Below are positions 6,381-34,397 of a DNA stretch of 45,672 nucleotides, in pieces. The notes under the pieces were generated by a model. The model ran no database searches and was not told where the DNA came from. It saw nothing but the letters and a program-made list of their open reading frames with translations. A program made the translations under genes and the position numbers. This DNA comes from Deltaproteobacteria bacterium (GTDB lineage: Bacteria > Desulfobacterota > DSM-4660 > Desulfatiglandales > HGW-15), in NCBI GenBank assembly GCA_019308745.1, contig JAFDHO010000008.1, positions 1-45,672 of the forward strand. Reading direction: 5' to 3'. The stretch's first letter is position 1; each line of letters begins with the position of its first letter.

Positions 6381-7607
6381 ATGAAAGTCCTTTGCAGCAA
6401 ATGCAGGAAAGACTATTCCCAGGGCACCATGGGACGCTGCCCCTCCTGTGACGGCATCCTGCGGCCCGAGTATCCGGACGGGGCGGTGAGGAAGCTCCGG
6501 GACATTATCCCGGGGCCTGGAATTGACAGGTACACGGGCCTGTTCCCCCTGGAGGGGGCCGTGCCTTGCCTGGGGGAGGGGGATACCCCTCTCATCGGAT
6601 CCAGAAGGATAGGGCCGGCCATGGGTTTGAGGCGCCTTTGTTTCAAGGTCGAGGGCTGCAACCCCAGCGGATCTTTCAAGGACCGGGGCGGGGCCCTGGC
6701 CGCCGGGCTGGCCCTTGAAAGGGGACTCAAGGGGATCATCACGGCATCTTCGGGAAACGCTGCGGCGTCGATTTCCGCTTACAGTGCTGCCGCGGGCCTG
6801 GAATGCCTCATACTCATGGAGCCGGGCAGCCCCCCGAACAAGATCAGGCAGACCCTTGCCACGGGAGCCACTGTCATACCCGTTGACGGAGTCTTTGACC
6901 ACGGGCCGGAGGCGATCGGCAGCCTCATGCTACGGCTCGCAGAGGCCCTGGATTACTACCCCGCCTTGGTGTGGGCGCCGGTCAACCCCTACATATTGGA
7001 AGGGGTCAAGACCATGTCCTACGAGATCGTGGCCCGCCTGGGAAAGGCCCCGGACCTGGTGATCTGCCCTGTAGGGGGCGGGGACATGCTGGCGGGGCAG
7101 TGGCGGGGTTACCTGGAACTCAAGAGGGCAGGCCTCATAGATCGCCTGCCCAGGATGATCGGTGTCCAGTCCTCTTCTGCCCCGCCCCTCGTGGAGGCCT
7201 TCCGCTCCGGATCCAGGCGTGTTAAGCCCCTGCCATATGCAAGGTCCAGGATCTCGGGAATAAACGTGCCCTTTACCGGAGAGCACGCCCTTGAGGCGGT
7301 CAGAGAATCCGGAGGCATGGTGCTGAGTATTGAGGACGAGGAGGCCCTGGCCCTTCAACAGAAGGTGGCCTTCGATGAAGGCCTCTGGATCGAACCGGTC
7401 TCTGCCGTCCCCCTCGCTGGCCTGAAGGTGCTTTTGGAAAGGGGCGGCGTGGAAAAGGATGACCTGGTGGTGTGTATTATGAGCGGGGCAGGGTTCAAGG
7501 ACAGCAACCTTGCCCACAGTGAGGCAGAAGAGGTATCGAGGCGCAATCCCATGCCCTTTGACATCGAGGCGATAATAGCCGAGGCAAAGGCCCTCAGGGC
7601 TTCTTGA
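6381..7607 (+). CDS. Threonine-synthase-like PLP enzyme with N-terminal zinc ribbon
   Basis: This is a fold-type II PLP enzyme of the threonine synthase/threonine dehydratase group. An N-terminal zinc ribbon is formed by CSKC and CPSC within the first 25 residues. The PLP-lysine motif follows as NPSGSFKDRGGAL, then the phosphate-contacting SSGNAAASI and, near the middle, PVGGGDMLAG. It is about 408 residues long, normal for this family. It starts one base after livF, so it is part of the transporter operon. That link suggests the enzyme acts on the imported compound or a derivative, perhaps by beta- or gamma-elimination or replacement on an amino acid; true threonine synthase activity is only one option. 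The 3' end overlaps the convergent AOR gene by 14 bases. The family call is firm; the exact reaction is not. Confidence 0.78.
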   Translation: MKVLCSKCRKDYSQGTMGRCPSCDGILRPEYPDGAVRKLRDIIPGPGIDRYTGLFPLEGAVPCLGEGDTPLIGSRRIGPAMGLRRLCFKVEGCNPSGSFKDRGGALAAGLALERGLKGIITASSGNAAASISAYSAAAGLECLILMEPGSPPNKIRQTLATGATVIPVDGVFDHGPEAIGSLMLRLAEALDYYPALVWAPVNPYILEGVKTMSYEIVARLGKAPDLVICPVGGGDMLAGQWRGYLELKRAGLIDRLPRMIGVQSSSAPPLVEAFRSGSRRVKPLPYARSRISGINVPFTGEHALEAVRESGGMVLSIEDEEALALQQKVAFDEGLWIEPVSAVPLAGLKVLLERGGVEKDDLVVCIMSGAGFKDSNLAHSEAEEVSRRNPMPFDIEAIIAEAKALRAS

Positions 7608-20305: not shown

Positions 20306-21106
20306 ATGACAGAATTGATCGTGCGAAATGAGCCGGCGATCAGAATGGGGTTTTTTGTGGGTATCTTCCTGGCCGTGGCCCTGGTCGAACTGGTTGCCCC
20401 GCGCCGGGGTCTGACCGTATCAAAGAAGACTCGATGGTTTGGAAACATCGGCATAGTGGCCATCAATACCTTCCTTCTGAGGATCCTGTTTCCTGCCGGC
20501 GCCGTAGGGATCTCGATATGGGTAGGGCGTCAGGGCTGGGGGATATTCAATCTTGCCGAATGGCCCTTCTGGCTTGAGATTGTCTTAACGGTCATCATAC
20601 TTGACTTTGTCATCTACATGCAGCACGTGATGTTCCATGCCGTCCCTGCCCTGTGGCGTCTCCATATGATGCACCATGCGGACCTGGACATCGACCTTAC
20701 CACCGGGACGCGGTTCCATCCCATTGAGATCATCATATCCATAGGGATAAAGGCAGGAGCCATCATCATACTGGGGGCCCCTCCGGTGGGTGTCATCATC
20801 TTTGAGATCATCTTGAACGGGACGGCCATGTTCAATCACGGTAATTTCTTTATTCCCCTGGGAGTTGACCGGGTATTGAGGCTCCTGGTAGACTTTCAGA
20901 TGGGGCACGAGCCTGACAAGTTACTCCAAAGGATCATGGCCCGTATTGTCCCGGGTCCCGAAGTGAACAGGGGCAGTGATACATGTCTCGTGAGCCTCAT
21001 ATCCTGGAGGGCCGAAGGCATGTCCGATGCTCGGTGGAAGAGACTGTGCGTGTCACACGAGACACAGATGTTTATCATCAAGCACATGATAGAGAGCGGC
21101 GCTTGA
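20306..21106 (+). CDS. Chimeric ORF: truncated fatty acid hydroxylase/sterol desaturase joined to an SRPBCC-like tail
   Basis: Residues about 1-194 are a membrane fatty-acid-hydroxylase/sterol-desaturase domain (PF04116) with hydrophobic helices and the metal-binding boxes H107-VMF-H111, H120-MM-H123-H124 and FNHGN at 177-180. The last box (H-x-x-H-H), which is needed for the di-iron site, is absent. From about residue 196 (VDFQMG) the sequence instead matches the end of the protein at 25661-26107: both share R-x-VPG, W-R, MSD-x-RW-x-RLC-x-SH. The join falls at RLLV (about 20879-20890), a short sequence that both parents would share. An in-frame deletion fusing two genes is the simplest reading. 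It is probably inactive as a desaturase. The start at 20306 follows GAAGGGATC. Confidence 0.72.
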   Translation: MTELIVRNEPAIRMGFFVGIFLAVALVELVAPRRGLTVSKKTRWFGNIGIVAINTFLLRILFPAGAVGISIWVGRQGWGIFNLAEWPFWLEIVLTVIILDFVIYMQHVMFHAVPALWRLHMMHHADLDIDLTTGTRFHPIEIIISIGIKAGAIIILGAPPVGVIIFEIILNGTAMFNHGNFFIPLGVDRVLRLLVDFQMGHEPDKLLQRIMARIVPGPEVNRGSDTCLVSLISWRAEGMSDARWKRLCVSHETQMFIIKHMIESGA

Positions 21107-21274
21107 CAGGGCCGAGCCTTTCCAATATATTGCTTGAACATCCAGGGAGATCCCCATTCCTTCCTATTCGGTTGGATCAATTATGGGCTGGTGGCGAACA
21201 TGATCTTCCTACAAGTTGACCTTTGACAGAGGCCCTGTTATTCCCCGGGGCGTCGAGCAACAGGGAGTTTCTTC

Positions 21275-22759
21275 ATGAGAAATATAGTTACGGGCGAGGA
21301 CGTGGAAATAGCCATACGTTCAGGGGAAAGGGAGATTGTCGTCGGCCCTGATGACATCATCACAAGCGTTGCCCATGAGGTGGCTGAAAGGGGCGGTATT
21401 CGGTTTGTCCGGGCTGAAGGATCGGCACACGGAGAGGCCAGCCCGGATGAAGGCACCACTCCGAAAGGCACGGCAGAGGCAAGCTCGGCCCCTTCGGGCC
21501 TTGACCTCCAGGTGGGTGAGAGGGCCCGAGCAGAGCAAATCCCCCAAAGAGAGGCCTCCTCCGTCCCCCCCTTTGACATGGACTGGTGGCGAAAGCAGTT
21601 CCCCATTCTGGAACACTATCTTCACGTGGCCAATTGTTCCCAGGCCCCCCAATCCACCTTCACCAGGGAAGCAGCCATGGAATACCTGGACAGCTGGAAT
21701 CAAATGGGTATGGACTGGGAAAGGTGGATGGAAGAGATCCATTATGCAAAGGAAGAATTCGGGAGACTTATCAATGCAAGCCCCGGGGAAATAGCGGTGG
21801 GGACATCCGTATCCGAACTCACCAGCACCATAGCCAGTTCCCTTCCCCTGGACAGGGAAAGAAACAAGGTGGTGGTGACGGATGCGGAATTTCCAACCGT
21901 GGGACATGTGTGGCTGGCCAACAGGAAATACGGCTTTGAAGTGGATTTCATTCCCGTGAAGAACGGAATCATCGAGGTCGATGACTATGACCGGTACGTG
22001 GATGAAAAAACGATCATCACCTCTGCATGCGACACCTATTACTACAACGGATTCCGGCAGGACCTATCCAGGATCATTCCCAAGATCCATGAAAAGGGAT
22101 CCCTGGTCTATGTTGATGCGTACCAGGGCCTGGGCACCCACGCCTTGGACGTGAAGGCATTAGATGTGGACATCCTGGCTTCCGGAAACCTCAAGTACCT
22201 CCTGGGCGTGCCGGGGATCGCCTTCCTCTACGTGAAGAAGGAAATCATCGAATATCTCCAACCCGCCTTTACCGGGTGGTTCGGGCAGGAGAACCCCTTC
22301 GCCTTTGATATCCACAACTTTATATACGCCACGGATGCCAGGCGTTTCGACAATGGCACGCCACCGGTGCCCACTGCCTACATCGCCAGGGCGGGTATGG
22401 GCATTATCAACAGGGTCGGGGTAGAAAACATCTACAGGTGGACCAACGTGCTTTCGGAACATTGCCTCAGAGGGGCCATGGAAAGGGGTCTTGATGTGGC
22501 CAGTCCGACGGATTTGAGCATAAAGGCACCCAATACCGCCATAAGGGTCCCGGGCGATTCCCACGAGTTTGAACTGGCCTTGAGGGAAAAGGGGGTGATA
22601 GCCTCGGCCAGGAGTGACGTGGTCAGGATTGCGCCCCATTTTTTCATCACCCTCGAGGATATCGATTACATCCTTGACTGCTACGCAGAGCTTCTGAAAA
22701 AGAAGAGAAACGGTCAGAGGCTGATATACGGAAAGATGAAGGTGTGGAACCTCGGCTAG
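21275..22759 (+). CDS. Class-V-fold PLP enzyme with EutQ-like N-terminal segment (microcompartment-associated)
   Basis: Residues about 104-494 are a class-V aminotransferase/cysteine-desulfurase fold. D281 and Q284 in YVDAYQGLGTH should contact the PLP ring, and K307 in SGNLKYLLGVPG should bind PLP. A 100-residue extension precedes this. Its first 45 residues (ITSVAHEVAERGGI at about 29-42) resemble the N-terminal segment of EutQ and related microcompartment proteins, and a P/E/A-rich linker of about 55 residues follows. The ATG at 21275 has CAGGGAG upstream. The shell-protein genes start 125 bases downstream. Likely cargo of the compartment, with the extension acting as a tether (inference). 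Candidate activities are aminotransferase (for instance on a ureido-glycine-type amino donor), kynureninase-like cleavage or desulfuration; sequence alone does not decide. Confidence 0.8.
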   Translation: MRNIVTGEDVEIAIRSGEREIVVGPDDIITSVAHEVAERGGIRFVRAEGSAHGEASPDEGTTPKGTAEASSAPSGLDLQVGERARAEQIPQREASSVPPFDMDWWRKQFPILEHYLHVANCSQAPQSTFTREAAMEYLDSWNQMGMDWERWMEEIHYAKEEFGRLINASPGEIAVGTSVSELTSTIASSLPLDRERNKVVVTDAEFPTVGHVWLANRKYGFEVDFIPVKNGIIEVDDYDRYVDEKTIITSACDTYYYNGFRQDLSRIIPKIHEKGSLVYVDAYQGLGTHALDVKALDVDILASGNLKYLLGVPGIAFLYVKKEIIEYLQPAFTGWFGQENPFAFDIHNFIYATDARRFDNGTPPVPTAYIARAGMGIINRVGVENIYRWTNVLSEHCLRGAMERGLDVASPTDLSIKAPNTAIRVPGDSHEFELALREKGVIASARSDVVRIAPHFFITLEDIDYILDCYAELLKKKRNGQRLIYGKMKVWNLG

Positions 22760-22884
22760 CCCTCTGGCAAAAGGCGGCCGTAATCCTGGGTGCCTTGTCA
22801 CCCTGGCCCCGGAGGGGTGAAGGGCAATAACGGGGATCATTCATGTATTATCTACTGCTATTCAACGTGTAACAAGGAGCTGTT

Positions 22885-23184
22885 ATGAAGATCTGTAAAG
22901 TCATGGGATTTGCGACGGCCTCTTTGAAGATTGAAGGCCTGGCCCCCTACAAGTTGCTCATAGTCAAGGGGATAGACGACGAGGGGGAACCGACGGGTGA
23001 AACCCTCCTTGCGGTTGATACCTTCGGGGCCGGGCTGTCGGAGGTGGTTGCTGTGGTGACGGGCTCCACTGCCAGCAAGGCAATCCACAACAAGGATCTG
23101 CCCGTTGATGCAGCGGTGGTAGGTATTATTGATCATGTCTCCATAAACAAGAAAGAAATCTACAGCAAAAACAGGGAGGAATAA
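22885..23184 (+). CDS. Microcompartment vertex protein, BMC-P (EutN/CcmL family)
   Basis: A 99-residue pentamer-forming vertex protein (PF03319) that caps the corners of a bacterial microcompartment. Family landmarks are the N-terminal MKICKVMGFATASLK, LLIVKGID, the central VDTFGAGLSEVVAVVTGSTA and the C-terminal PVDAAVVGIIDHV. Length is normal. A strong AAGGAG site lies upstream. It is the first of three consecutive shell genes; the BMC-H gene begins at the base after its stop. Its presence shows that a closed shell is intended. Confidence 0.93.
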   Translation: MKICKVMGFATASLKIEGLAPYKLLIVKGIDDEGEPTGETLLAVDTFGAGLSEVVAVVTGSTASKAIHNKDLPVDAAVVGIIDHVSINKKEIYSKNREE

Positions 23185-23478
23185 ATGGACAAGGCTCTAG
23201 GAATGATCGAGACAAAGGGTTTGGTGGGGGCCATTGTGGCCGTGGACAGCATGTCAAAGTCGGCCAGTGTGGAAATCCTTGGCTCCAGGGAAGTCGGTGC
23301 GGGGCTTGTATCCGTCTTTGTTAGAGGAGATGTGGGAGCGGTAAAGGCGGCAATAGATTCGGCTGCAACATCAGTCAAGAAGGTAGGAGAAATTGCCTCC
23401 ATTCATATCATTGCAAAGCCGAGCGAAGAGACGCTCCGGATGATCCCGGGAGTCGGAGCAGCAAAGGCAAAGAAGTAA
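23185..23478 (+). CDS. Microcompartment hexameric shell protein, BMC-H (PduA/CcmK family)
   Basis: A 97-residue single-BMC-domain protein (PF00936) that tiles the compartment facets as hexamers. It has the typical start KALGMIETKGLVGAIVAVDS, SASVEILGSREVGAGLVSVF with the pore-lining loop REVGAG, RGDVGAVKAAIDSAA, and HIIAKPSEE near the end. The loop is small and uncharged at its tip, suggesting passage of small polar molecules (inference). It is coupled to the vertex gene, with GGGAGGA overlapping that gene's end. Only one BMC-H gene is seen, so this is a minimal shell. Confidence 0.94.
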   Translation: MDKALGMIETKGLVGAIVAVDSMSKSASVEILGSREVGAGLVSVFVRGDVGAVKAAIDSAATSVKKVGEIASIHIIAKPSEETLRMIPGVGAAKAKK

Positions 23479-23509
23479 ACCAAAGGCTGATCAGCCGGAA
23501 AGACCTGAA

Positions 23510-24124
23510 ATGGCCGAAGAACATTTTCAGTTGAGGACCTATGCACTGATAGATAGCATGCAACCTCAGTTTGCTGCCTTTCTTGCATCGGAGCTCGACG
23601 GGGACGTCCCCTTGGCAAAGATGGCCGAGCTATGGATGGAGCTGGCCCCCGGCAGTGAGATCTATAACCTCCTTGATGTGGCGCTCAAGGAGTGCAATGC
23701 GAAACCAGGGCTTCAGATGGTGGAGAGGGAGTTCGGGGTCCTCGAGGTTCATTCTTTTGACCTGGAGTCCGTAAAGGGTGCGGGCGAGATCATTCTGAGG
23801 ACCTGCGGGCTGGAAGTCTCCCAAAGGCTGAGGCCAACCGTGGTTTCCGCCAAGATCATCAATAAGGTAAACCCCTACCAGGCGCAACAGATCAACAAGG
23901 TAAGGAAAGGCACGCTCCTTTTGCCCGGCAGGTCCCTCCTGGTCTTTGAGGTCGAGCCCGCGGCATACATCGTCCTAGCCGCAAACGAGGCAGAAAAGGC
24001 ATCCAATATCAATCTCGTACACTTCAATCCCTTTGGCCGTTTTGGAAGGCTCTTTCTTTCGGGCAGCGAATCGGAGATAAAAACCGCAAGAGAGGCAGCC
24101 GTGGCTGCCATCGAAGGCATATGA
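23510..24124 (+). CDS. Microcompartment trimeric shell protein, BMC-T (tandem BMC domains)
   Basis: A 204-residue protein with two BMC domains in tandem, forming pseudohexameric trimers. Domain 1 covers about residues 8-95 (LRTYALIDSMQPQFAAFLAS, ELWMELAPGSEIYNLLDVAL, VEREFGVLEVHS). Domain 2 covers about 105-204 (VSAKIINKVNPYQAQQINK, GRSLLVFEVEPAAYIVLAAN, GRLFLSGSESEIKTA). Proteins of this type often have a gated larger pore for bulky substrates or cofactors. The last bases overlap the next gene (ATGA), coupling it to the amidohydrolase. The ribosome-binding site upstream is weak (GGAAAG). Confidence 0.88.
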   Translation: MAEEHFQLRTYALIDSMQPQFAAFLASELDGDVPLAKMAELWMELAPGSEIYNLLDVALKECNAKPGLQMVEREFGVLEVHSFDLESVKGAGEIILRTCGLEVSQRLRPTVVSAKIINKVNPYQAQQINKVRKGTLLLPGRSLLVFEVEPAAYIVLAANEAEKASNINLVHFNPFGRFGRLFLSGSESEIKTAREAAVAAIEGI

Positions 24125-25650
24125 GCAATTACAAGGCCCCATTCGTGCCCGCCTATCTGAAGAGGCAGGAGCACAATAGTGGAACGGTTTTCATACCCCG
24201 GTGGCTCAAGGAAGAAGGGCCGTCCCCTGATTCCGAAGTCGCGGCGGTTTCTGAACGAAAGGCCCCCTTTCCGGACAAATACGTCAGCGGAGACACGCCC
24301 TATATATTAAAGGGCGGGACGTGCATCATTCCCGGCCAGGGAATCCTGCCCCTGGATATCAAGATCCATAGGGGTACCGTTGTCTCAACGGGAAGGGACA
24401 TGGCCCATGATGGCTGCGAGGTCATAGACCTTGGGGGGAGGCTAGTCGCCCCCGGCATCATAGACCCCCATTTCCACATGGGCATTTTCTCGCCCTTTGA
24501 CGAAGAAGTTGTGACGGAATCCAGGTCGGCACTACTCAACGGCATCACGACCCTGGGGCTTTATGTGGGCGGGACGGATTCATACCTCGGCATTCTCGAC
24601 GAAGTCACTGAAAAGATAGAGAGGCGGAGCTATGCGGATATCTTTATCCACCTCGCCATCCATACCCGTGAGCAACTGGAGGAAATTCCTCTCTATTTTT
24701 CCGGGTACGGGATCACCTCTTACAAGGCCTACATGTGCGGCATACCCGGACTTATCCCTGAGGTAGAGGATGATTTCCTCATGGATCTCATGGAGAAGGT
24801 GGCATCCCTGGGACATGATGCGGTCCTCAACATCCACGCGGAAAACCACCGGCTTGTCAATAGAACGACGGCCCGCCTCAAGGCCAGGGAACCGGAAACT
24901 GTCTCCATGAGGACGTGGGAGGAGAGCCACCCAGGATTTGCCGAGGCAGAGGCGATCCAGAGGGCCGCTTTTCTGGCAAGGAAGACAGGGGCCAGGACCT
25001 ATTTTGTCCATCTTTCCGCAAGGGAATCTGTCCAAAGGGCAAGAGCGCTCAAAGGCGAGACGAAAGACATCTTTTTCGAGACAACCTCTCCCTATCTCAC
25101 CCTGGCGCTGGAACAGGATCTGAGCGTCCTCACCAAGATGACTCCGCCGGTAAGGACGCTGGATGACCAGGATGCCCTCTGGGGGGGGCTGGGCGATGAT
25201 ACGCTTGACAGCATCGGGACGGACCACACGCCCATGACCCGGAGCCAGAAGGTGTCGAGCCCCAACCTGTGGGAAATACCTCCCGGTTACCCTGCCGCAG
25301 GGACCCATGTGCCATCCCTCCTGGACCGGGCCATGGCGAGGGGTTTCCCCTTGCTCAAGCTGATGGAGAAGATGACCTCATCTCCTGCAAAGATCTTCGG
25401 TCTCTATCCCAGGAAGGGCACCCTGCTGCCGGGGAGTGACGCGGACCTGGTCATTATTGATCCACTGGTGGAAAGGGTGGCGAGCCCGGAGATCGCAGCT
25501 TCCAGGGCCGACTATTGCCTCCACCAGGGGCAATCGCTGAAGGGCTGGCCCGTGGCTGTTGTGAAGGGAGGGAGGGTCGTCACGAGGGAGAATTTCGACC
25601 GGATCAAAGATTCCCCCGGAGGACGATACTTGAGGAGGCAGAAAGGCTGA
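24121..25650 (+). CDS. Cyclic amidohydrolase (hydantoinase/dihydropyrimidinase/allantoinase type), microcompartment-associated
   Basis: A metal-dependent cyclic amidohydrolase. All binuclear-metal residues are visible: H117 and H119 (DPHFHMG), the lysine to be carboxylated K202 (SYKAYM), H239 (NIHAENH), H297 (FVHLSAR) and D368 (GTDHTPM). It should open a cyclic amide or ureide ring such as a hydantoin, dihydropyrimidine or allantoin. The catalytic domain starts near residue 60; the first 60 residues are an extension that carries two copies of a short motif, F8-VPAYL-K14 and F24-IPRWL-K30, not expected in soluble relatives. Its start overlaps the BMC-T stop, so it is made with the shell. Probable cargo, with the extension as a candidate targeting peptide (inference). 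Confidence 0.87.
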   Translation: MSNYKAPFVPAYLKRQEHNSGTVFIPRWLKEEGPSPDSEVAAVSERKAPFPDKYVSGDTPYILKGGTCIIPGQGILPLDIKIHRGTVVSTGRDMAHDGCEVIDLGGRLVAPGIIDPHFHMGIFSPFDEEVVTESRSALLNGITTLGLYVGGTDSYLGILDEVTEKIERRSYADIFIHLAIHTREQLEEIPLYFSGYGITSYKAYMCGIPGLIPEVEDDFLMDLMEKVASLGHDAVLNIHAENHRLVNRTTARLKAREPETVSMRTWEESHPGFAEAEAIQRAAFLARKTGARTYFVHLSARESVQRARALKGETKDIFFETTSPYLTLALEQDLSVLTKMTPPVRTLDDQDALWGGLGDDTLDSIGTDHTPMTRSQKVSSPNLWEIPPGYPAAGTHVPSLLDRAMARGFPLLKLMEKMTSSPAKIFGLYPRKGTLLPGSDADLVIIDPLVERVASPEIAASRADYCLHQGQSLKGWPVAVVKGGRVVTRENFDRIKDSPGGRYLRRQKG

Positions 25651-25660
25651 GGGGTTTTCT

Positions 25661-26107
25661 GTGAAAGGACACGAAACTTCGTGTTATACGGTAGGCATTG
25701 AGATCGCGGTCGGGGCTGAGAGGGCCTTTCAGTATCTTTCCGATCTTGAGAAACTGGGCCTCTGGGCCCTGGGCTGCTTTGATACGAAACCTTCGGGCAA
25801 AGAGGGCCTGTACAAGGGGCGGTCACTCTTTGATGGTTCGGAGGTGTTTGTGCGCACCGAGACAGACGAGGGTCGCCTTCTCATTGACTATTATGTCGGA
25901 GGTCCTGAAAGGCAAATCCCGCGGATCTTCACCAGGGTTGTGCCCGGCCATACCTATGGAGGGGGTCCTGATCATTGTCTCGTCATCATGACCGCTTGGC
26001 GAACAAAGGACATGTCGGATCCCCGCTGGAGGAGGCTATGCGCGAGTCACGACGCAGAGATCTTGATGATCCAGTCCCAACTGGAGAGACAAAGTCCCTG
26101 TCCGTAA
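25661..26107 (+). CDS. SRPBCC-like protein closing the microcompartment operon
   Basis: A 148-residue protein that looks like an SRPBCC/START-fold protein (polyketide-cyclase-like), judged from the opening YTVGIEIAVGAERAFQYLSD, a ligand-pocket fold that binds small hydrophobic molecules. The C-terminal half has a distinctive pattern W-R-x3-MSD-x-RW-x-RLC-x-SH. The same pattern ends the chimeric ORF at 20306-21106. It starts with GTG at 25661, ten bases after the amidohydrolase stop, with GAGGGG upstream, so it belongs to the same operon. Its job is unknown; a lyase, cyclase or binding role on the amidohydrolase product is possible. The fold call is moderate. Confidence 0.6.
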   Translation: MKGHETSCYTVGIEIAVGAERAFQYLSDLEKLGLWALGCFDTKPSGKEGLYKGRSLFDGSEVFVRTETDEGRLLIDYYVGGPERQIPRIFTRVVPGHTYGGGPDHCLVIMTAWRTKDMSDPRWRRLCASHDAEILMIQSQLERQSPCP

Positions 26108-26271: not shown

Positions 26272-27561
26272 TCACAGGAGGCCGAGCAATGCCGGCAGGG
26301 TCAGGGTGACGGCCGGGATATAGGTCACAAGGCCAAGTGTGAAGAGAGAGGCCACGAGGAAGGGCAAGACGGCGATCACTATGTGGCTTACGGGGTCTTT
26401 GGAGATATCTGCTGCTGCGAAGAGGCATACCGCCAGCGGTGGTGTGAGCAGCCCGATGTTGAGGTTGACAATCATCAGGACGCCAAAGTGAACGGGGTGG
26501 ACCCCCAGCTCCACGGCCAAAGGGGTCAACATGGGGGCAAAAAGGATTATGGATGCGGAACAATCCAGCCACATACCGAGAAGGACCAGGAAGAGGTTTA
26601 TCATGAGCAAGACAAGATACTTGTTCCGGCTTATGGAGTAGAAGATCCCTTTGATCTTTTCAGGGACGTTCTCTATTCCAAAGACCCAGGCAAGGATGGC
26701 GCCACAACCGACGATCAGGAGGAGCTTTGCGGAGAATATGACGGCGGTCTTGAATATGGGGAGGTACTCGGTGATTTTGAGGGAGCGATAGATCAAGGAG
26801 GCCACCACAAAGGCGTAAAGGACCGCGACACCGGCCGCTTCAGTGGGGGTGAAGACCCCGGAGAGGATGCCGAAGATGATGATCGCCGGCATGACCAGGG
26901 GCACCAGGGCATCCCTTGTTCCCAGGGCCAGCTTCTTGGGTGTCAGGGGGACGGTAATCTTCGGGTAGTTTCTCTTCTTGGCCAGATAGACAACGATACA
27001 CATCTGGGACAGGCCCATCAGGATACCCGGTATGATTGCCGCTGCAAACAGTGCCCCTATGGAGACGGATGTCACCGCGCCGTAGATGACCATGATCATG
27101 GAAGGGGGAATGATGGGACCAATAATGGATGAAGAGGCCGTCACCGCTGCTGAAAATGGGCCATCGTAGCCTTGCTTCTTCATCGCGGGGATGAAGATGG
27201 AACCCAGGGCGGCTATATCTCCCAGGGCCACACCGGTTATACCGGCAAAGAGCATGGAGGCAAGTATATTCACGTGTGCGAGACCTCCGCGCCACCTGCC
27301 GACCACCAGATTTGCGAACTCCACTATTCGGTCAGCGATCTTCCCCTTGGTCATGATCTCTCCGGCCAGGATAAAGAAGGGGATGCACATGAGCACGAAG
27401 GCGTCCATGCCCGAGAAGAGTTTCTGAGGGGCCATATCCAGGAATGACGCCTGTGGGGAGAACAGGAGATAAAGAGAAGCGGAAAACCCCATAATGAACG
27501 CCACAGGCATCCCTGCAAGGAGCATAAGGATGAAAACAAGGACCATCCACCCCAAAGACAT
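26272..27561 (-). CDS. dctM: TRAP transporter large permease (DctM)
   Basis: The 12-helix ion-coupled permease subunit of a TRAP transporter (429 residues). Landmarks are the N-terminal LLAGMPVAFIMGFSA, FILAGEIMTKGKIADRIVEF, GITGVALGDIAALGSIFIPAM and IGPIIPPSMIMVIYGAVTSV, then the C-terminal NIGLLTPPLAVCLF. It takes ligand from the DctP binding protein and co-transports it with Na+ or H+. The start overlaps the dctQ stop by one base (TAATG). It converges with the microcompartment operon, leaving 164 bases between them in which I see no clear terminator. Confidence 0.93.
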   Translation of the reverse strand: MSLGWMVLVFILMLLAGMPVAFIMGFSASLYLLFSPQASFLDMAPQKLFSGMDAFVLMCIPFFILAGEIMTKGKIADRIVEFANLVVGRWRGGLAHVNILASMLFAGITGVALGDIAALGSIFIPAMKKQGYDGPFSAAVTASSSIIGPIIPPSMIMVIYGAVTSVSIGALFAAAIIPGILMGLSQMCIVVYLAKKRNYPKITVPLTPKKLALGTRDALVPLVMPAIIIFGILSGVFTPTEAAGVAVLYAFVVASLIYRSLKITEYLPIFKTAVIFSAKLLLIVGCGAILAWVFGIENVPEKIKGIFYSISRNKYLVLLMINLFLVLLGMWLDCSASIILFAPMLTPLAVELGVHPVHFGVLMIVNLNIGLLTPPLAVCLFAAADISKDPVSHIVIAVLPFLVASLFTLGLVTYIPAVTLTLPALLGLL

Positions 27562-28145
27562 TATGATTCCTCTCCTGAAGGGGAGGCCCCCCGGTCAGAC
27601 CTCCCTGTCGCAGGATTCCCGGGGGAAGATCCTTCATCCTCGTCTCCGCTCCTGTCGGCGGGCCCCGCACACAGGAGGTAGATGTCCTGAATGAGGGAGA
27701 TAACCGTATATACACCAATGAGCGTGGCCCCGACAGGGATGGCAAGGGTGGGCCAGAGCATACTGATCCTGAGCCCGGAACTTTCAAAGAGCCTGTTGAA
27801 GAGGGCGATCTTTATGCCCTTGACCGTGATGATCACCAGGAAGGTCAGGGTGCAGAGGCGGAAGGCGGTCTCCATGATCCTCCTTCCGTTGTGCCCCGCG
27901 AGGAGGGGAAAGAAATCAATGCGGATATGATCGTTCCTGGATTGGACGAGGGCCGCGCCGATCATGACCATCCATATCATGAGATAGCGGACCAGTTCCT
28001 CCGCCCACACGAAGGAGTAATTGAAGATATACCTGGAGAAGACCTGTAAGATGACGACAAGGCTCATGAGGAAGAGCAGAAACACGCAGACGCCCGTTTC
28101 CAGGGACTCGAAAAAGGGACCAAGCTTGAAGTCCCGTTTCATCAT
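27561..28145 (-). CDS. dctQ: TRAP transporter small permease (DctQ)
   Basis: The four-helix small membrane subunit of the TRAP transporter, about 194 residues. Visible features are the helix VCVFLLFLMSLVVILQVFSR, the family motif FVWAEELVRYLMIWMVMIGA and a C-terminal tail of about 40 hydrophilic residues that is longer than usual (rich in S, G, D, P). The ATG at 28145 is chosen because GAGAGGGG lies seven bases upstream; an earlier in-frame start at 28175 has no such site. Ends within the dctM start, so the two are co-translated. Confidence 0.85.
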   Translation of the reverse strand: MMKRDFKLGPFFESLETGVCVFLLFLMSLVVILQVFSRYIFNYSFVWAEELVRYLMIWMVMIGAALVQSRNDHIRIDFFPLLAGHNGRRIMETAFRLCTLTFLVIITVKGIKIALFNRLFESSGLRISMLWPTLAIPVGATLIGVYTVISLIQDIYLLCAGPADRSGDEDEGSSPGNPATGRSDRGASPSGEES

Positions 28146-28231
28146 GGGACCCCTCTCATTGCTCAGAGGAAACATTGTTTGGAATTTTGGTCACGCGCAG
28201 CGCAGGCGCAGCCGCCGCGTGTTGGAAATTG

Positions 28232-28270
28232 CCCTTCGACTTTGCTCAGGATGGTGAGCTGGCCGAACCG
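28232..28270. repeat. Short imperfect palindrome of a widespread type
   Basis: The stretch has a central GCTCA-GGATGG-TGAGC hairpin (28244-28259), preceded by CTTCGACTTT and followed by TGGCCGAACC. This is the form of the short 'CTTCGAC...GCTCAGGATGGTGAGC...CGAACC' palindrome scattered in many bacterial genomes. It lies between dctP and dctQ, where a hairpin could also damp read-through after the binding-protein gene. Confidence 0.5.
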
Positions 28271-28361
28271 TTTGATATTGGGGATTTGGTATTGGAATTT
28301 CAATGAGAAAAACGAACTTCCAGCAAACCAAATCCCCTCGGGCCATAACCGGGACAAAGGG

Positions 28362-29387
28362 CTACTTGGCGTCCTCTGCGGCCTTGAGCATCCCGTCTAC
28401 CCATCTGTCTCCCACTTCTCCCCTCAGCCATTCAAGCACCGGTCCCTGGGCCTTGGCCTTGAAAAGAGCCCTCTGTTGGGGGGTCGGGACATAGATCTCC
28501 ATGCCGTTCCTTTTCAAACCTTCGATGGCCATGTGGTCCGTGTAACGGGATACACCCCGGTTCACGGCCAGGGCAAGGGCCTGGGCCTTGTCTATGACCT
28601 GTTGGAGGTCCTTTGGGAGCGACTGGTAGAACTTGTCATTGATGACCATGGCGGAGACCGCGTAGACGTGGTTATCCACGGTGACATATTTTTGTACCTG
28701 GTACCATTTGAAGAGGTTGACCAGGGAAAGGGCATTGTTCTGCCCGTCAACCGTCTTGTTCTTCAAGGCCCCGTAAAGTTCCCCGAAGCTGATGGGGGTG
28801 GGAGATCCCCCGAGGCTTGAGACGAGTTTTTGGAAGATGGGAGACGGCATGACACGGATCTTGAGACCTTTCATGTCTTCGGGGGTGCGGACGGGGCGCT
28901 TGGAATTGGTCCATTGTTTGAACCCGCCTGATTCCCACCAGTGAAGGACCCTGAGTCCGGTCTTTTTTCGGAGCGCTTCATTGAGTTGTTTGACGAAGGC
29001 GCCGTCATAGAGTCGCCAGGCCTGGTACTCATCCTCAAGCAGGTACGGGATGGAAAAGACCTGAACGGGCTTGAAGACCTGGGCTATGGGGCCCTCGGCC
29101 GTGTCCGCACCTTGGATCTGCCCCATCATGACCTGTTTCATGCGATCCGAGGGGCTCCCTAGCGCCCCTCCCCATATGAGCTCCACCTGGATGCGGCCGT
29201 TGGATTTTCTTTCGACCTCGTATTTGAACATGTTGTAATGGGTCGCCCAAAAGCTGGGGTTGATGTCAGGAGCAGCAAGGCCGAACTTCATGACCCACTG
29301 TTGCTGGGCATGGCTTGAAGTTGGGGTGAGAATAAACCAGATCCCACAGGCGATCAAAAGCACGCAAAATGTCAATCTTCTCTTCAT
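28362..29387 (-). CDS. dctP: TRAP transporter periplasmic substrate-binding protein (DctP)
   Basis: A periplasmic solute receptor of 341 residues with a Sec signal peptide (MKRRLTFCVLLIACG to about SSHAQ). The DctP fold shows as the WVMKFGLAAPDINPSFWA start, GRIQVELIWGGALGS, MKGLKIRVMPSPIFQKLV with the conserved arginine that binds the ligand carboxylate, and ELYGALKNKTVDGQNNAL. A strong GGGAGGAGGAACC site precedes the start. It is the first gene of the dctPQM operon and diverges from the 2-oxoacid oxidoreductase genes. The arginine indicates a carboxylate ligand; an aromatic or 2-oxo acid would fit the divergent operon (inference). Confidence 0.92.
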   Translation of the reverse strand: MKRRLTFCVLLIACGIWFILTPTSSHAQQQWVMKFGLAAPDINPSFWATHYNMFKYEVERKSNGRIQVELIWGGALGSPSDRMKQVMMGQIQGADTAEGPIAQVFKPVQVFSIPYLLEDEYQAWRLYDGAFVKQLNEALRKKTGLRVLHWWESGGFKQWTNSKRPVRTPEDMKGLKIRVMPSPIFQKLVSSLGGSPTPISFGELYGALKNKTVDGQNNALSLVNLFKWYQVQKYVTVDNHVYAVSAMVINDKFYQSLPKDLQQVIDKAQALALAVNRGVSRYTDHMAIEGLKRNGMEIYVPTPQQRALFKAKAQGPVLEWLRGEVGDRWVDGMLKAAEDAK

Positions 29388-29642: not shown

Positions 29643-30215
29643 ATGTACGAGATCCGTTTCCATGGCCGGGGCGGGCAGGGCGCTGTCCTGGCCGCCAAGA
29701 TCCTGGCCAAGGCCCTGGTAGAAGAGGGTAAACATGTCAAGGCCATCCCTTCCTTTGGTTTCGAGCGCAGGGGTGCCCCTGTGGAGGCCTATCTCCGCTT
29801 TGACGAGAGGCAGATAAGGCAGATCACCAACATCTATGAACCAGATTGCGTCGTCTGCCTTGACCCCACCCTTGGCAGGTCAGTGGATATCTTCAGGAAC
29901 CTCAAGGACGAGGGCACCTGGGTCCAGGCTACCAAGAAGCGGTTGGAGGAACTGGTGATTCCGGGCACTGTCGCAAGGGTAGGTCTCTGCGATGCCTTCG
30001 GAATAGCCCTCCAGATCTACGGGAGAACCATTACCAATACCATTATGCTGGGAGCCCTGGCAAAGACCACGGGGATGGTGTCCCTGGAGGCCCTGTATTC
30101 GGGCATGGCCTCTGTGGCCTTTCGGGATGCGGACCTCGAGAAGAACCGGGATGCCGTGAAGACGGGTTATGCCGAGACAAGGGTCTTTGAGCCCGGCAGG
30201 GAGGAGTGCCCATGA
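29643..30215 (+). CDS. padE: 2-Oxoacid oxidoreductase gamma subunit (PadE-like)
   Basis: The gamma subunit of a CoA-acylating 2-oxoacid oxidoreductase, 190 residues. The typical start is YEIRFHGRGGQGAVLAAKIL, followed by KAIPSFGFERRGAPVEAYLR and a late NTIMLGALAKTTG. It forms a complex with the next four genes. The gene order gamma, delta, alpha, FAD subunit, ferredoxin-beta is that of padEFGHI, phenylglyoxylate:NAD+ oxidoreductase of Azoarcus/Aromatoleum, which turns phenylglyoxylate, CoA and NAD+ into benzoyl-CoA, CO2 and NADH. The symbol is given on gene order and architecture; a related 2-oxoacid may be the real substrate. It overlaps the delta gene by four bases. Confidence 0.85.
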   Translation: MYEIRFHGRGGQGAVLAAKILAKALVEEGKHVKAIPSFGFERRGAPVEAYLRFDERQIRQITNIYEPDCVVCLDPTLGRSVDIFRNLKDEGTWVQATKKRLEELVIPGTVARVGLCDAFGIALQIYGRTITNTIMLGALAKTTGMVSLEALYSGMASVAFRDADLEKNRDAVKTGYAETRVFEPGREECP

Positions 30216-30505
30216 AGCGGCAGCCAAAAGAATTCTTTGATCAATCTCGAATACCAGGTGATCTCTGCCCCATCGCGACAGAACCTATGGACGTCAAGAC
30301 CGGAGATTGGCGCGCTGAACGCCCCGTGGTTGACCGGGAGAGGTGTGTGAAGTGTGCTACGTGCTGGCTCTTTTGTCCCACCCAGTGTGTCCTGGAGAAG
30401 CCCGCGTGGTTTGAGGCGGATCTGGAGATATGCAAGGGGTGCGGCATATGTGCCAGTGAATGCCCGCATCATGCCATAACCATGGTGGAAGAGGTGGAGG
30501 AATAA
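30212..30505 (+). CDS. padF: 2-Oxoacid oxidoreductase delta subunit, 2[4Fe-4S] ferredoxin (PadF-like)
   Basis: A 97-residue ferredoxin-type subunit with two cluster motifs, CVKCATCWLFCP and CKGCGICASECP, in its second half. The first half (DVKTGDWRAERPVVDRERC) is the normal lead of PorD-type subunits. The ATG at 30212 is preferred over a GTG at 30206 because GGGAGGAG sits five bases before it. It overlaps padE and precedes the alpha gene by two bases. It should carry electrons from the thiamine-diphosphate site to the FAD subunit. Confidence 0.88.
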   Translation: MKRQPKEFFDQSRIPGDLCPIATEPMDVKTGDWRAERPVVDRERCVKCATCWLFCPTQCVLEKPAWFEADLEICKGCGICASECPHHAITMVEEVEE

Positions 30506-30507
30506 TA

Positions 30508-31710
30508 ATGGGGAAAACCATTGTCTGTGACGGCAACGAGGCAGCGGCCTGGGGTGTGGCCCTTTCAAGGCCGGACATGGTGGCGGTCTATCCGATTACG
30601 CCCCAGTCTTCCCTTGCAGAATATATCTCCCAATTCGTTGCGGACGGCATTATCCAGGCCGACCTCATGGACGTGGAAGGGGAACATAGCGTCCTTTCGG
30701 TGCTTCAGGGGGCCTGCCTCGCCGGTGCAAGGACCTTCACTGCCAGTTGCGGCCAGGGTCTCGCCTTCATGTTCGAACCCTATTACAGGACGGCCCCCTT
30801 GAGGCTTCCCCTGGTGATGTCCATTGTAACAAGGGACGGAATAACGCCCCAGAGCGTTTGGGGGGGACAGCAGGATGCCATGACGGTTCGCGAAGCGGGT
30901 TGGATACAAATGTACACGGAAAACTGCCAGGAGATCCTCGACACCGTGATCATGGCTTACAAGATAGCCGAGAACCGTGACGTTATGCTCCCCGTGAATG
31001 TCTGCCACGACGGCAATTATCTATCCTATGGCGTGGAAAGGGTGGAACTTCCGGATCAAGAGGAGGTGGATTCATTTCTCGGGGAAAAGAATACCAACTG
31101 GCACGTCGCCTTGGACCCTGAAAGACCCATGGGCGTGGATCCCCTGACCGGGGGGTCAGGAGGGGTCGGCCCGGGGCTTTTCTTGCGATACAGGAAGGGG
31201 CATTGCAAGGGAATGCAGAATGCCCTCAGGGTCATAACCGAGGTCCACCAGGAATGGGCACAACGTTTTGGACGGGTCTACGCCCCCCTGATAGAAGCCT
31301 ACAGGCTCGAAAATGCCGACTACGCCATTGTCACCATCGGAAGCATGAGCGGGGCGGGAAAGGACGCTGTGGATGATGCCAGAGAAAGGGGTGAAAAGGT
31401 AGGCCTGATTAAAATCAAGACCTTCAGACCCTTTCCCCTTCGGGCTTTTTGCGGGGCCCTGTCTCAGGTGAAGGCGGTGGGAGTGGTCGATCGGTCGGTC
31501 AGCTTTGGCTGGAATTCAGGGCCCGTCTATCAGGAAATCCTCTCGGCCCTCCACCACGTGGAGACAAAGACGAGGGTCGTAAGCTTCATAGGCGGCCTCG
31601 CAGGTGCGGACATAAGGGTGGACCATTTCACCAGGGTCATTGAAACCACGGCCCGGGCCCTCAAGGGAGAAATGCCCCAGGGGCCCATTTGGCTTAACGA
31701 AGAGGATTAG
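30508..31710 (+). CDS. padG: 2-Oxoacid oxidoreductase alpha subunit (PadG-like)
   Basis: The alpha subunit of the oxidoreductase, 400 residues, of PorA type. It shows CDGNEAAAWGVALSRPDMVA, the characteristic YPITPQSSLAEYIS, a DVEGEHSVLSVLQGACLAGA stretch and SCGQGLAFMFEPYY. The C-terminal domain includes IGSMSGAGKDAVDDARERGE. The ATG at 30508 (GGAGGAATAAT upstream) begins the conserved domain; an in-frame ATG at 30460 lies inside the delta gene. This subunit, with beta, forms the active site that decarboxylates the 2-oxoacid. Length agrees with PadG-type subunits. Confidence 0.9.
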   Translation: MGKTIVCDGNEAAAWGVALSRPDMVAVYPITPQSSLAEYISQFVADGIIQADLMDVEGEHSVLSVLQGACLAGARTFTASCGQGLAFMFEPYYRTAPLRLPLVMSIVTRDGITPQSVWGGQQDAMTVREAGWIQMYTENCQEILDTVIMAYKIAENRDVMLPVNVCHDGNYLSYGVERVELPDQEEVDSFLGEKNTNWHVALDPERPMGVDPLTGGSGGVGPGLFLRYRKGHCKGMQNALRVITEVHQEWAQRFGRVYAPLIEAYRLENADYAIVTIGSMSGAGKDAVDDARERGEKVGLIKIKTFRPFPLRAFCGALSQVKAVGVVDRSVSFGWNSGPVYQEILSALHHVETKTRVVSFIGGLAGADIRVDHFTRVIETTARALKGEMPQGPIWLNEED

Positions 31711-31726
31711 AAGCGGGGTGCTGGAC

Positions 31727-32989
31727 ATGGCGCGATATAAGTATCTCATAGTGGGCGCGAGCCACGCCGGTCTCTCTGCACTGGACTCCATCAGATTGAC
31801 CGACAGGGAAGGGCCCATTACCATGGTGAACCGGGAGGCCCGTCTCCCCTATTCGCCGACCATCCTCCCATACGTCCTGTCAGGCAGGGTGGATCCGAGC
31901 AGGATCTTTCTCAAAGACAAGGAAGGCCTGAAGAGGATGGGAGTAAGGTATCTCCAGGGAACGACCGTCTCAGAGGTTGACCAGGACGCGGGAGAGGTGG
32001 TGCTCTCGTCAGGCGAACGCGTGGGATATGAGAAGTTGCTCCTTGCCACGGGGGCTTCACCTGCGTCACCTGAGATAGATGGTCTGGAAGAGGTGCCTTA
32101 CCACGTACTGAGGACCCTTGACGACGCATTGAAATTGCAGCGGGAGTTCGGGGAAGGAAGGTCTGCTCTTGTGATTGGAGCGGGTCTCATCGGCATGCAC
32201 GCGGCTGAGAGCATGGCAGAGTGGGGCATGGATGTTACGGTGCTGGAAGCCGAGGCCAGCGTATTGCCCGGGTATTTCGACGAGACCCCGGCGAGAATGA
32301 TCCAGGATGTATTCCAAAGAAATGGCGTCAAGATAAGGGTAGGGAGCAGGATTGGGAAGGTCTCCCGTTCAAAGGGGACCCATATTGTCGAGATCTCCTC
32401 AGGGGAGAGTCTTTCGGCCGACCTGATTCTCGTGGCAACCGGTGTCAAGCCCAACAGAGATTGTCTCAAGGAGAGCGGGATAAGGACAGACAAGGGCATC
32501 CTGGTAGATGAAAGGATGAGAACAAGTGCCGCGGCCGTGTGGGCCGCGGGAGACGTAGCCCAGGCCAAGGACCTTCTTGACGGCCAAAAGCGCTTGCATG
32601 CAACGCTTCCGGACGCCGTGGAACAGGGGCGCATTGCCGGCATGGACATGGCAGGAGATGCTTCCCTGAAGGATTACAGGGGGGGCATTCCCATGAACGT
32701 TTTCAAGTTTTTCGGGAGCAGGGCCCTCTCCCTTGGAACGAGTGTCAATGGAGAACCGGAAGCAGGGATAGAAGTGGACCAGGTCTTCTTACCCGGGACC
32801 GGGAAATTTCTGAAGCTCGTTTTCGAGGGCCCCTATCTGGTGGGCGCAGTGGCAATCAATACGGACCTGGATCCCGGTGTCATGCATGAGATCATTAGGG
32901 GAAGGATTGATCTGCGGGATAGCAGGGCCCTGTTTGTGGAGAGACCGAAAGAAATCGGCCGTATACTCATGACAAACCTGTGGCGATAA
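31727..32989 (+). CDS. padH: FAD/NAD(P)-binding oxidoreductase subunit (PadH-like)
   Basis: A 420-residue pyridine-nucleotide-disulphide oxidoreductase-family flavoprotein. The first dinucleotide-binding motif is YLIVGASHAGLSALDS at the N-terminus, the second (for NADH) is VIGAGLIGMHAAESMAEWG, and the FAD-ribityl Asp lies in VWAAGDVAQA. No redox-active CxxxxC is seen. It sits between the alpha and beta genes, exactly where padH (epsilon) stands in the phenylglyoxylate dehydrogenase operon, and should pass electrons from the ferredoxin subunits to NAD+. The ATG at 31727 is the likely start; a GTG nine bases upstream is possible. Confidence 0.82.
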   Translation: MARYKYLIVGASHAGLSALDSIRLTDREGPITMVNREARLPYSPTILPYVLSGRVDPSRIFLKDKEGLKRMGVRYLQGTTVSEVDQDAGEVVLSSGERVGYEKLLLATGASPASPEIDGLEEVPYHVLRTLDDALKLQREFGEGRSALVIGAGLIGMHAAESMAEWGMDVTVLEAEASVLPGYFDETPARMIQDVFQRNGVKIRVGSRIGKVSRSKGTHIVEISSGESLSADLILVATGVKPNRDCLKESGIRTDKGILVDERMRTSAAAVWAAGDVAQAKDLLDGQKRLHATLPDAVEQGRIAGMDMAGDASLKDYRGGIPMNVFKFFGSRALSLGTSVNGEPEAGIEVDQVFLPGTGKFLKLVFEGPYLVGAVAINTDLDPGVMHEIIRGRIDLRDSRALFVERPKEIGRILMTNLWR

Positions 32990-33071
32990 GGAGCGGGGGA
33001 CCTTAAGATAATGTAAGTGCTCCCGGCTCCAAGGGTGACCCGGAAGGTGACGCAAGACAAGGGAGGAGAAA

Positions 33072-34397
33072 TTGGGAAGAAGTTACAGAACAATCGCCTT
33101 TTATCCGGAAAGATGTAACGGCTGCAACGAGTGCATGGAGGCCTGTGCCCGGGTAAAATCGGGGAACGGAGATCCGAGCCATTCTAGAATAGGGATAGAG
33201 AAGGATGCAGAGGGTTCCTCCTACGGCTTGGCCCTTTGCAGGCAATGCGGTGAACCAAGATGCGTCATGGCTTGTCCGGCGGCAGCGTTGATAAAGGATG
33301 ATGATTCCGGTGTCGTTCAGTTGGATGATGCAAAGTGCGTGAACTGCCAATTGTGCACGCTCGCCTGCCCTTACGCAGGTATTACATACAAGGCGCAGAC
33401 CGACAAGGTGATCAAATGCGATCTTTGCGCCGGAGATCCTGAATGTGTCAAGGTGTGCAAGCCCGGTGCCCTGGAGTTCAAGAGGGCCGCGGACATCTAC
33501 AATGCCTGGGGCGAGGCTGAGGACCTGTTCGTGCCGGGGCTCTCTGCCTGTCTTGGTTGTAACTCCGAGTTGATCATGAGACACACCCTTCGCAAGATAG
33601 GCCCCAACACCGTCCTTGCGACACCCCCCGGGTGCATCCCCGGAGTCGGCGTGGTAGGGGTAAATGGCTTAACAGGGGTCAAGGTCCCGTCCATCATCCC
33701 GCTGCTCACAAACACTGCTGCCATGCTGGCCGGAGCAAAACGCTATTATAGCCGCATAGGCCGGGATGTGACAATGCTTGCCCTGGCAGGGGATGGGGGC
33801 GCAGCGGACGTGGGATTCCAGTCCCTCTCCGGCGCTGCGGAGCGGGGAGAGCAGATGATCTTTATCTGCGTTGACAATGAGGGCTACATGAACACGGGGG
33901 TTCAGCGGTCCAGCACGACACCCTATGGGGCATGGACGTCCACCACACCGGTCGGAAAGGAGCTCAGGGGCAAGAGCAGAGATGCGAAACCTTTGCCCCT
34001 GATCATGGTGATGCACAACTGCGAATATGTTGCAACAGCAGCAATGGCGTTCATGGAGGATTACTACGCAAAGCTGGATAAGGCGATCGAAGCATCCAAG
34101 CGGGGTATGGCTTTCCTGCACATCTTTTCACCCTGTCCGACGGGCTGGAGATTTTCGCCAAGCCAGCTCCTTGAAGTAACCCGTAAGGCAGTGGAGACCA
34201 ACATGGTACCCCTCTGGGAGTATGAAAGGGAGGTCGGTCGCATTCGGTTCACCATGCCGATAGAGGAACCACTTCCGGTCAAGGAATATTTGAAACTGAT
34301 CGGAAAATACAGCCACCTGGACGAAGGCCAGGTTCAATATCTGCAGCGTATGACCGAGGAGAGGATCGAGTTCCTGAAGAGATTTACTGCAGATTGA
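33072..34397 (+). CDS. padI: 2-Oxoacid oxidoreductase beta subunit with N-terminal four-cluster ferredoxin (PadI-like)
   Basis: A two-part subunit of 441 residues. Residues about 1-140 carry sixteen cysteines for four [4Fe-4S] clusters: CNGCNECMEAC, CRQCGEPRCVMAC, CVNCQLCTLAC and CDLCAGDPECVKVC. Residues about 155-441 are a PorB-type thiamine-diphosphate domain with CLGCNSELIMRHTLR, the TPP/Mg2+ motif GDGGAADVGFQSLSGAAERG and FICVDNEGYMNTG. A TTG at 33072 is the best start: GGGAGGAG ends four bases before it and no ATG lies near. The ferredoxin-beta fusion and the size of about 48 kDa agree with PadI, which supports the phenylglyoxylate dehydrogenase reading. Confidence 0.85.
   Translation: MGRSYRTIAFYPERCNGCNECMEACARVKSGNGDPSHSRIGIEKDAEGSSYGLALCRQCGEPRCVMACPAAALIKDDDSGVVQLDDAKCVNCQLCTLACPYAGITYKAQTDKVIKCDLCAGDPECVKVCKPGALEFKRAADIYNAWGEAEDLFVPGLSACLGCNSELIMRHTLRKIGPNTVLATPPGCIPGVGVVGVNGLTGVKVPSIIPLLTNTAAMLAGAKRYYSRIGRDVTMLALAGDGGAADVGFQSLSGAAERGEQMIFICVDNEGYMNTGVQRSSTTPYGAWTSTTPVGKELRGKSRDAKPLPLIMVMHNCEYVATAAMAFMEDYYAKLDKAIEASKRGMAFLHIFSPCPTGWRFSPSQLLEVTRKAVETNMVPLWEYEREVGRIRFTMPIEEPLPVKEYLKLIGKYSHLDEGQVQYLQRMTEERIEFLKRFTAD

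Follow-up and report, generated by a model that had tools for sequence, protein, structure and literature searches.

A compact candidate microcompartment locus pairing a class-V pyridoxal phosphate enzyme with a cyclic amidohydrolase

Introduction

Nearly all characterised catabolic bacterial microcompartments (BMCs) enclose aldehyde chemistry, and a third, aldehyde-free paradigm has been in question since the BUF loci were named in 2014. These loci encode a full shell without the metabolosome core enzymes (PMC4207490). In BUF1/Xau, xanthine dehydrogenase (XDH), two ring hydrolases, a decarboxylase and a formimidoyltransferase are found at the locus (PMC6620236), and BUF2 is confined to a single phylum (PMC8217296). 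In the Eut system, deletion has shown that helices H1 and H2 of EutQ bind the shell (PMC12487888). Here, we describe a 45,672-nucleotide stretch of DNA from a Deltaproteobacteria bacterium (positions 1 to 45,672 of contig JAFDHO010000008.1, assembly GCA_019308745.1; hereafter the window), which carries a cassette of three shell genes and two enzyme genes, the latter encoding a class-V pyridoxal 5'-phosphate (PLP) enzyme and a cyclic amidohydrolase (AMH). We put at roughly 0.55 the probability that the cassette specifies a minimal, self-sufficient, aldehyde-free catabolic microcompartment with these two enzymes as cargo, releasing a 2-oxoacid for cytosolic conversion to acyl-CoA.

Results

The cassette was annotated using Pfam and NCBIfam as five + strand genes at positions 21275-25650 of the window, in the order PLP enzyme, BMC-P, BMC-H, BMC-T and AMH. 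Intergenic gaps are 0-125 bp, with a 4 bp overlap between the BMC-T and AMH genes. The class-V PLP enzyme (21275-22759, +; PF00266, 3.5e-33) is followed by a BMC-P vertex pentamer of the EutN/CcmL type (22885-23184, +; PF03319, 4.2e-25), which is present at all loci described below, and by a BMC-H shell hexamer (23185-23478, +; PF00936, 4.4e-21), the only single-domain BMC-H of the genome. The BMC-T protein (23510-24124, +) scores above the PF00936 cut-off and matches the NCBIfam CcmP model with 221.6 bits; it is therefore a double-ring trimer of the CcmP-like type. The last gene encodes AMH, of the hydantoinase/dihydropyrimidinase fold (24121-25650, +), and both enzymes are proposed cargo. 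BMC-P, BMC-H and BMC-T occur together, the complete shell by which a bacterial microcompartment is recognised. The window corresponds to contig 85 in a metagenome-assembled genome (MAG) of 5.06 Mb and 91% completeness, with relatives among the Desulfatiglandales, and the PF00936 genes of this genome are just the BMC-H and BMC-T of the cassette.

Using the BMC-T protein as query against 84,980 species genomes, together with whole-genome searches, we found the same five genes in identical order in 12 genomes from two groups of mostly uncultured bacteria, seven from Desulfobacterota (the window, genome G001 and loci L019-L023) and five from Spirochaetota (L024-L028). The arrangement is therefore not due to chance. 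A preliminary description of this DNA had reported shell genes of all three classes packed with a class-V PLP enzyme and a hydantoinase-type enzyme with intact metal residues, and both the Pfam/NCBIfam matches and the recurrence in 12 genomes bear this out. The cassette is rare among the sampled genomes (3 of 393 in the Spirochaetota search; 3 of 395 above 70% identity in the Desulfobacterota search). Identity between the BMC-T proteins of the 12 loci is 70-89%, and the pairwise distance matrices of the five cassette proteins correlate (0.57-0.92), as expected for a unit inherited together. The BMC-H and BMC-T genes of the cassette are the only ones present in 11 of the 12 genomes, and the shell therefore has one gene per class. 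The Spirochaetota genome G469 contains an extra BMC-H + BMC-T set on another contig (G469:C7:291491-292695).

Inspection of the non-BMC homolog loci did not reveal the PLP enzyme and AMH paired outside the BMC cassette. The nearest PLP enzyme homologs are those of Priestia (41%), Bacillus badius and Natronosalvus plasmids, and AMH homologs occur on Haloarcula and Variovorax plasmids, all in contexts unrelated or uninformative for function. Rhodobacteraceae and Desulfolinea loci with a related BMC-T were assigned to other types, since they hold aldehyde dehydrogenase and other enzymes. At the contig edge in L028, a second, truncated class-V aminotransferase (2-811, +) lies directly upstream of the cassette.

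The first ~46 residues of the PLP enzyme are missing from its non-BMC relatives, whose matches begin near residue 90-108. An N-terminal profile of 11 orthologs matches residues 1-45 of E. coli EutQ (21.9 bits; 3.8e-5 among 11,100 open reading frames (ORFs)), identifying residues 1-46 (21275..21412, +) as homologous to the N-terminal H1/H2 domain of EutQ. In all 12 cassette genomes, the same profile picks out the PLP enzyme and no other protein. In the AlphaFold model, the domain folds separately (pLDDT 76-92), followed by a disordered linker (residues 49-93). By analogy with EutQ, residues 1-46 look like a shell-docking domain provided in cis. A link to EutT via the profile was not significant. 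The profile also matches ~30 proteins in other BMC loci, such as Ldh-like enzymes of Rhodobacteraceae, and these matches suggest that BMC cargo more generally uses the EutQ-H1/H2-like domain for shell docking in cis. In L085 (10618-11793), and at the same position in ~20 other Rhodobacteraceae loci (L036-L097), the domain is fused to an Ldh/MDH-family enzyme encoded right after BMC-T.

D281, Q284, K307 and R451 of the PLP enzyme are invariant in the ortholog alignment. The PLP lysine and the Asp are retained, as is the C-terminal Arg, a residue that binds the substrate carboxylate in this PLP fold type. A cysteine desulfurase identity (SufS/CsdA/IscS) was rejected, as the SufS EHH motif is changed to EFP, the Cys loop is deleted and the score is 88 bits against a cut-off of 475. 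The FPT, KYL, GWFG and GT.P motifs are shared with P. fluorescens kynureninase (1qz9); despite these, the TIGR01814 kynureninase model gives only 51 bits compared with a cut-off of 246. Because the PLP residues are kept, the SufS His and Cys loop are gone, and kynureninase-like motifs accompany a score far below the kynureninase cut-off, the protein is probably an amino-acid-handling class-V enzyme.

The N-terminal ~50 residues of AMH are disordered in the AlphaFold model (pLDDT below 50). Across orthologs this tail (residues 1-49; 24121..24270, +) is variable in sequence and in length, and only an F-phi-P-x-[WYF] motif in two or three copies (FVPAY and FIPRW in the window) is constant. The tandem motif is present in every ortholog, with F8, P10, F24, P26 and W28 invariant. 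No other ORF among 5,076 contains two such motifs within 60 residues, and the chance expectation for motif pairs is 0.18, as computed on a slightly larger ORF set. In 6 of the 11 orthologs, one copy of the F-phi-P motif is also found in the PLP enzyme linker. The tandem F-phi-P-x-aromatic motif may serve to dock AMH to the shell.

The binuclear metal site of AMH is complete and invariant (H117, H119, K202, H239, H297 and D368), and corresponds to the HxH, carboxylated Lys, H, H, D arrangement of dihydropyrimidinase/D-hydantoinase. A Foldseek comparison matches the AMH fold to D-hydantoinase 1k1d with a TM of 0.87 by target. AMH nevertheless falls under all curated cut-offs, including those for dihydropyrimidinase, dihydroorotase, allantoinase (188 vs 358 bits) and D-hydantoinase, its best NCBIfam match (233 vs 393 bits). 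The D-hydantoinase Tyr located five residues past the metal lysine is replaced by Gly207. The preliminary description had cited the pairing of allantoinase with ureidoglycine aminotransferase as a chemical precedent. Under such a ureide model, AMH would act as an allantoinase/hydantoinase and the PLP enzyme as a ureidoglycine-type aminotransferase, with the compartment retaining a nitrogen intermediate. The hydantoinase/allantoinase fold and intact metal site of AMH are consistent with this, and the class-V fold is common to ureidoglycine-glyoxylate aminotransferase. However, both the low allantoinase and D-hydantoinase scores and the Tyr to Gly207 replacement argue otherwise, and just 4 of the 12 cassette genomes have a match to TIGR01879 (allantoate/carbamoyl amidohydrolases) above the cut-off, the window's own being among the 8 that do not. 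We therefore abandon the proposed precedent, and consider the ureide model improbable.

With its very small size and single gene for each shell class, the locus might instead be decayed or serve only as a scaffold, its shell having ceased to enclose active enzymes. However, the catalytic residues are all kept across two phyla at 47-89% identity, as are the two tags, and decay or a purely scaffolding role is the least probable of the explanations we considered, with hardly any weight left to it.

Neither PF00171 nor alcohol dehydrogenase was found among the window ORFs scanned, and PduL is missing from the window's genome. Only two PF00171 proteins occur in this genome, the L-piperidine-6-carboxylate dehydrogenase of the lysine pathway and ProA, both without tags. 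This excludes the classical metabolosome reading for the window's genome; the absence is strong rather than absolute because the MAG is 91% complete. A search of the same genome for aldehyde dehydrogenase and phosphotransacylase tied to the shell genes was likewise negative, and the earlier view that the compartment lies outside the aldehyde paradigm stands. The accompanying claim that no aldehyde cargo is present is accurate for PF00171, PduL and alcohol dehydrogenase, but overlooks two tungsten-type aldehyde:ferredoxin oxidoreductases (AORs) upstream of the cassette in the window (7594-9408, −; 10789-13449, +). AOR genes are located near four Desulfobacterota cassettes (the window, L022, L023 and L132, in the latter at 4550-6355), as might be seen if the locus were a fragment of a classical metabolosome, with aldehyde enzymes elsewhere or the aldehyde handled by a nearby AOR. 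Given the lack of PduL, the untagged nature of both PF00171 proteins, and the fact that no AOR adjoins the cassette in the Spirochaetota loci, this explanation is largely refuted and retains little probability.

Downstream of the cassette, the window encodes a putative PadEFGHI-type NADH-dependent 2-oxoacid (phenylglyoxylate) dehydrogenase (29643..34397, +), which we propose as the cytosolic downstream enzyme. Four of its five subunits (gamma, alpha, epsilon and beta) score above the curated cut-offs, with delta at 139 vs 150. A TRAP transporter (DctM, DctQ and DctP; 26272..29387, −), convergent to the cassette, stands between the two and is a candidate uptake system. TRAP genes adjoin the cassette also in L020, L022 and L132, where they belong to a different lineage (~25-39% identity to those of the window). 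A 2-oxoacid oxidoreductase (Pad or POR) is found near 7 of the 10 loci with enough flank (the window, L021, L023 and L024-L027). The Pad genes are co-directional in L023, ending 5 bp before the PLP enzyme gene, and divergent in L021, ~120 bp away. In the Spirochaetota loci L024-L027, POR lies beside the cassette, as do genes for an ADP-forming acyl-CoA synthetase and, divergently oriented, an Lrp-type regulator; this POR scores far under the Pad cut-offs (485 vs 700). Of the seven Desulfobacterota genomes with the cassette, six have a close PadG homolog. In the family of the window, PadG occurs in 4/4 genomes with the cassette vs 4/13 without it (Fisher p 0.03, relatedness ignored). The preliminary description did not mention this neighbouring oxidoreductase, nor the EutQ-type domain or the tandem motif.

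TRAP, Liv ABC, AOR and XDH-family genes are each found repeatedly, but not at all loci. XDH-family genes are located beside the cassette in two phyla (L022 12208-16955, with a proline racemase family gene; L023 11248-14922; L024 17990-20497). These could belong to an N-heterocycle pathway of the purine, indole or pyridine type, whereby a molybdenum hydroxylase would form a cyclic amide outside the compartment, AMH would open the ring within the shell, the kynureninase-like PLP enzyme would cleave the product, and PadEFGHI would handle the resulting arylglyoxylate or pyruvate. Such a pathway would accommodate the kynureninase-like motifs, the phenylglyoxylate dehydrogenase scores of the Pad subunits, and a PF04199 cyclase (the family holding isatin hydrolase) encoded upstream in both the window and L020. 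The XDH genes are nonetheless restricted to three loci, none of them in the window, and the Spirochaetota POR does not approach the Pad cut-off. On balance we regard the N-heterocycle pathway as unlikely, if less so than the ureide model. 4Fe-4S proteins are encoded right after AMH in L023 (9860-10993, +) and L132 (15894-16652, −), with the L023 protein weakly matching a reductive dehalogenase subunit.

A possible sigma-70-type promoter (TTGACA-17-TATATT; 21103..21131, +) with 11/12 consensus matches is located 144 nt before the PLP enzyme start codon. The promoter scan overall was near chance (6 sites found vs 4.1 expected), and this site is a lead only. The ORF directly following AMH (25661-26107, +) had been described as an SRPBCC-like protein closing the locus, a claim we could not uphold: it has no Pfam/NCBIfam match and lies outside the conserved unit, being absent from the other cassette loci except for a related fragment in L019. 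On the other side of the cassette, an ORF at 20306-21106 (+) combines a fatty-acid hydroxylase domain with a C-terminal segment that is related to the 25661-26107 ORF (37% over 97 aa), and reads as a chimera or broken paralog. Further away, a single ORF (43023-45350, −) fuses cysteine synthase (CysKM, residues 11-301) to cysteinyl-tRNA synthetase (residues 309-772), with both halves scoring above the curated cut-offs.

Discussion

In the model we favour, the shell would be assembled from a single type each of BMC-P, BMC-H and double-ring BMC-T. Docking would depend on the EutQ-H1/H2-like N-terminal domain in the PLP enzyme, and in AMH on the disordered tail, where two or three F-phi-P-x-aromatic motifs are found. 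Following uptake by TRAP or ABC systems, the substrate would enter through the shell, where AMH would open a cyclic amide or ureide ring and the PLP enzyme would either remove or transfer the amino group, or cleave the ring-opened amino acid in a kynureninase-like manner. The 2-oxoacid would then exit and be oxidised to acyl-CoA by PadEFGHI or POR in the cytosol, with the Spirochaetota regaining ATP from the acyl-CoA via the adjacent ADP-forming acyl-CoA synthetase. The presence of a compartment, the identity of its cargo and the tags appear well supported by sequence. We infer that the enzymes are encapsulated, that the motif acts in docking, that the reactions run in this order and that a 2-oxoacid is the product.

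Several observations weigh against this model. The AMH and PLP enzyme reactions cannot yet be connected in a named pathway, because a plain hydantoin would give an N-carbamoyl amino acid, which is of no use to a PLP enzyme, and a conserved carbamoylase is lacking. For the same reasons, a lactam, an imide or a ring with a free amino group is a more likely substrate than a simple hydantoin or allantoin. No POR is present within the flank of L020, L022 and L132, genome G028 is without a close PadG, and POR might function in a neighbouring amino-acid pathway unconnected with the cassette. The PLP enzyme linker in the window is without the F-phi-P motif. Furthermore, the cassette genomes are all MAGs.

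We tentatively propose, at somewhat less than even odds, an undescribed BMC type that works on nitrogen rings rather than aldehydes, its two-enzyme core converting a cyclic amide to a 2-oxoacid; one enzyme would bear a EutQ shell-docking domain in cis and the other a new multivalent tag. Part of the same tentative proposal is that the tandem F-phi-P-x-aromatic tag is unlike the usual amphipathic encapsulation helix. With three shell genes and two enzymes in 4.4 kb, the cassette is close to the smallest testable case of an aldehyde-free microcompartment, and can be cloned whole. The two targeting signals, one tied to an experimentally studied docking domain and one apparently new, would be useful for loading engineered shells. 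A product that feeds a 2-oxoacid oxidoreductase would furthermore narrow the search for the substrate. Taken as a whole, the interpretation given in the preliminary description is partly supported.

A literature search for a microcompartment with hydantoinase or dihydropyrimidinase as cargo yielded no open paper with this pairing, the matches being bioengineering reviews and unrelated brain-proteomics papers. The preliminary description had raised the catalogued classes without the aldehyde core (BUF and XAU). The cassette fits the broad BUF definition, with a shell present and none of the core enzymes, but BUF1/Xau is excluded on gene content: apart from one AMH, none of the genes of that locus type was found among the window ORFs scanned. 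BUF2 membership was rejected on phylum range rather than gene list, as the cassette spans both Desulfobacterota and Spirochaetota. Pending comparison with the BUF2 and BUF3 gene lists, we regard the cassette as an undescribed aldehyde-free BMC locus type, set apart from BUF1/Xau by description and from BUF2 by phylum range.

AMH shares the fold and complete binuclear metal site of D-/L-hydantoinase and dihydropyrimidinase (1k1d, 1gkp and 1gkr), in contrast to which it lies below every curated cut-off, has Gly in place of the catalytic-loop Tyr and carries a 60-residue tagged N-terminus. The PLP enzyme shares the fold and PLP-binding residues of kynureninase and SufS, and differs from these in lacking the SufS His and Cys loop and in its low score with the kynureninase model. 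The N-terminal 46 residues of the PLP enzyme are homologous to the H1/H2 region with which EutQ bridges to the shell (PMC12487888), but are fused to a catalytic PLP enzyme as opposed to a cupin and encapsulation-peptide-binding helices, and ethanolamine genes do not accompany them. The RMM/AUT microcompartments likewise contain a PLP enzyme (an aminotransferase) as the probable signature enzyme inside a BMC, in combination with CoA-acylating aldehyde dehydrogenase and amino-alcohol genes, neither of which is found in the cassette (PMC4207490, PMC6620236).

Among described systems, BUF1/Xau, predicted to function in xanthine utilisation in Alkaliphilus metalliredigens, resembles the cassette in its three-class shell, the lack of aldehyde dehydrogenase, phosphotransacylase and alcohol dehydrogenase, an amidohydrolase core and a suspected nitrogen compound as substrate (PMC4207490, PMC6620236); the XDH genes near some cassette loci are a further similarity. 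Xau differs in being restricted to Firmicutes, and in its published description combines two ring hydrolases with a decarboxylase and a formimidoyltransferase, and no class-V PLP enzyme. The cassette, in contrast, contains two enzymes only, carries a EutQ-type domain, has POR next door and is found in Desulfobacterota and Spirochaetota.

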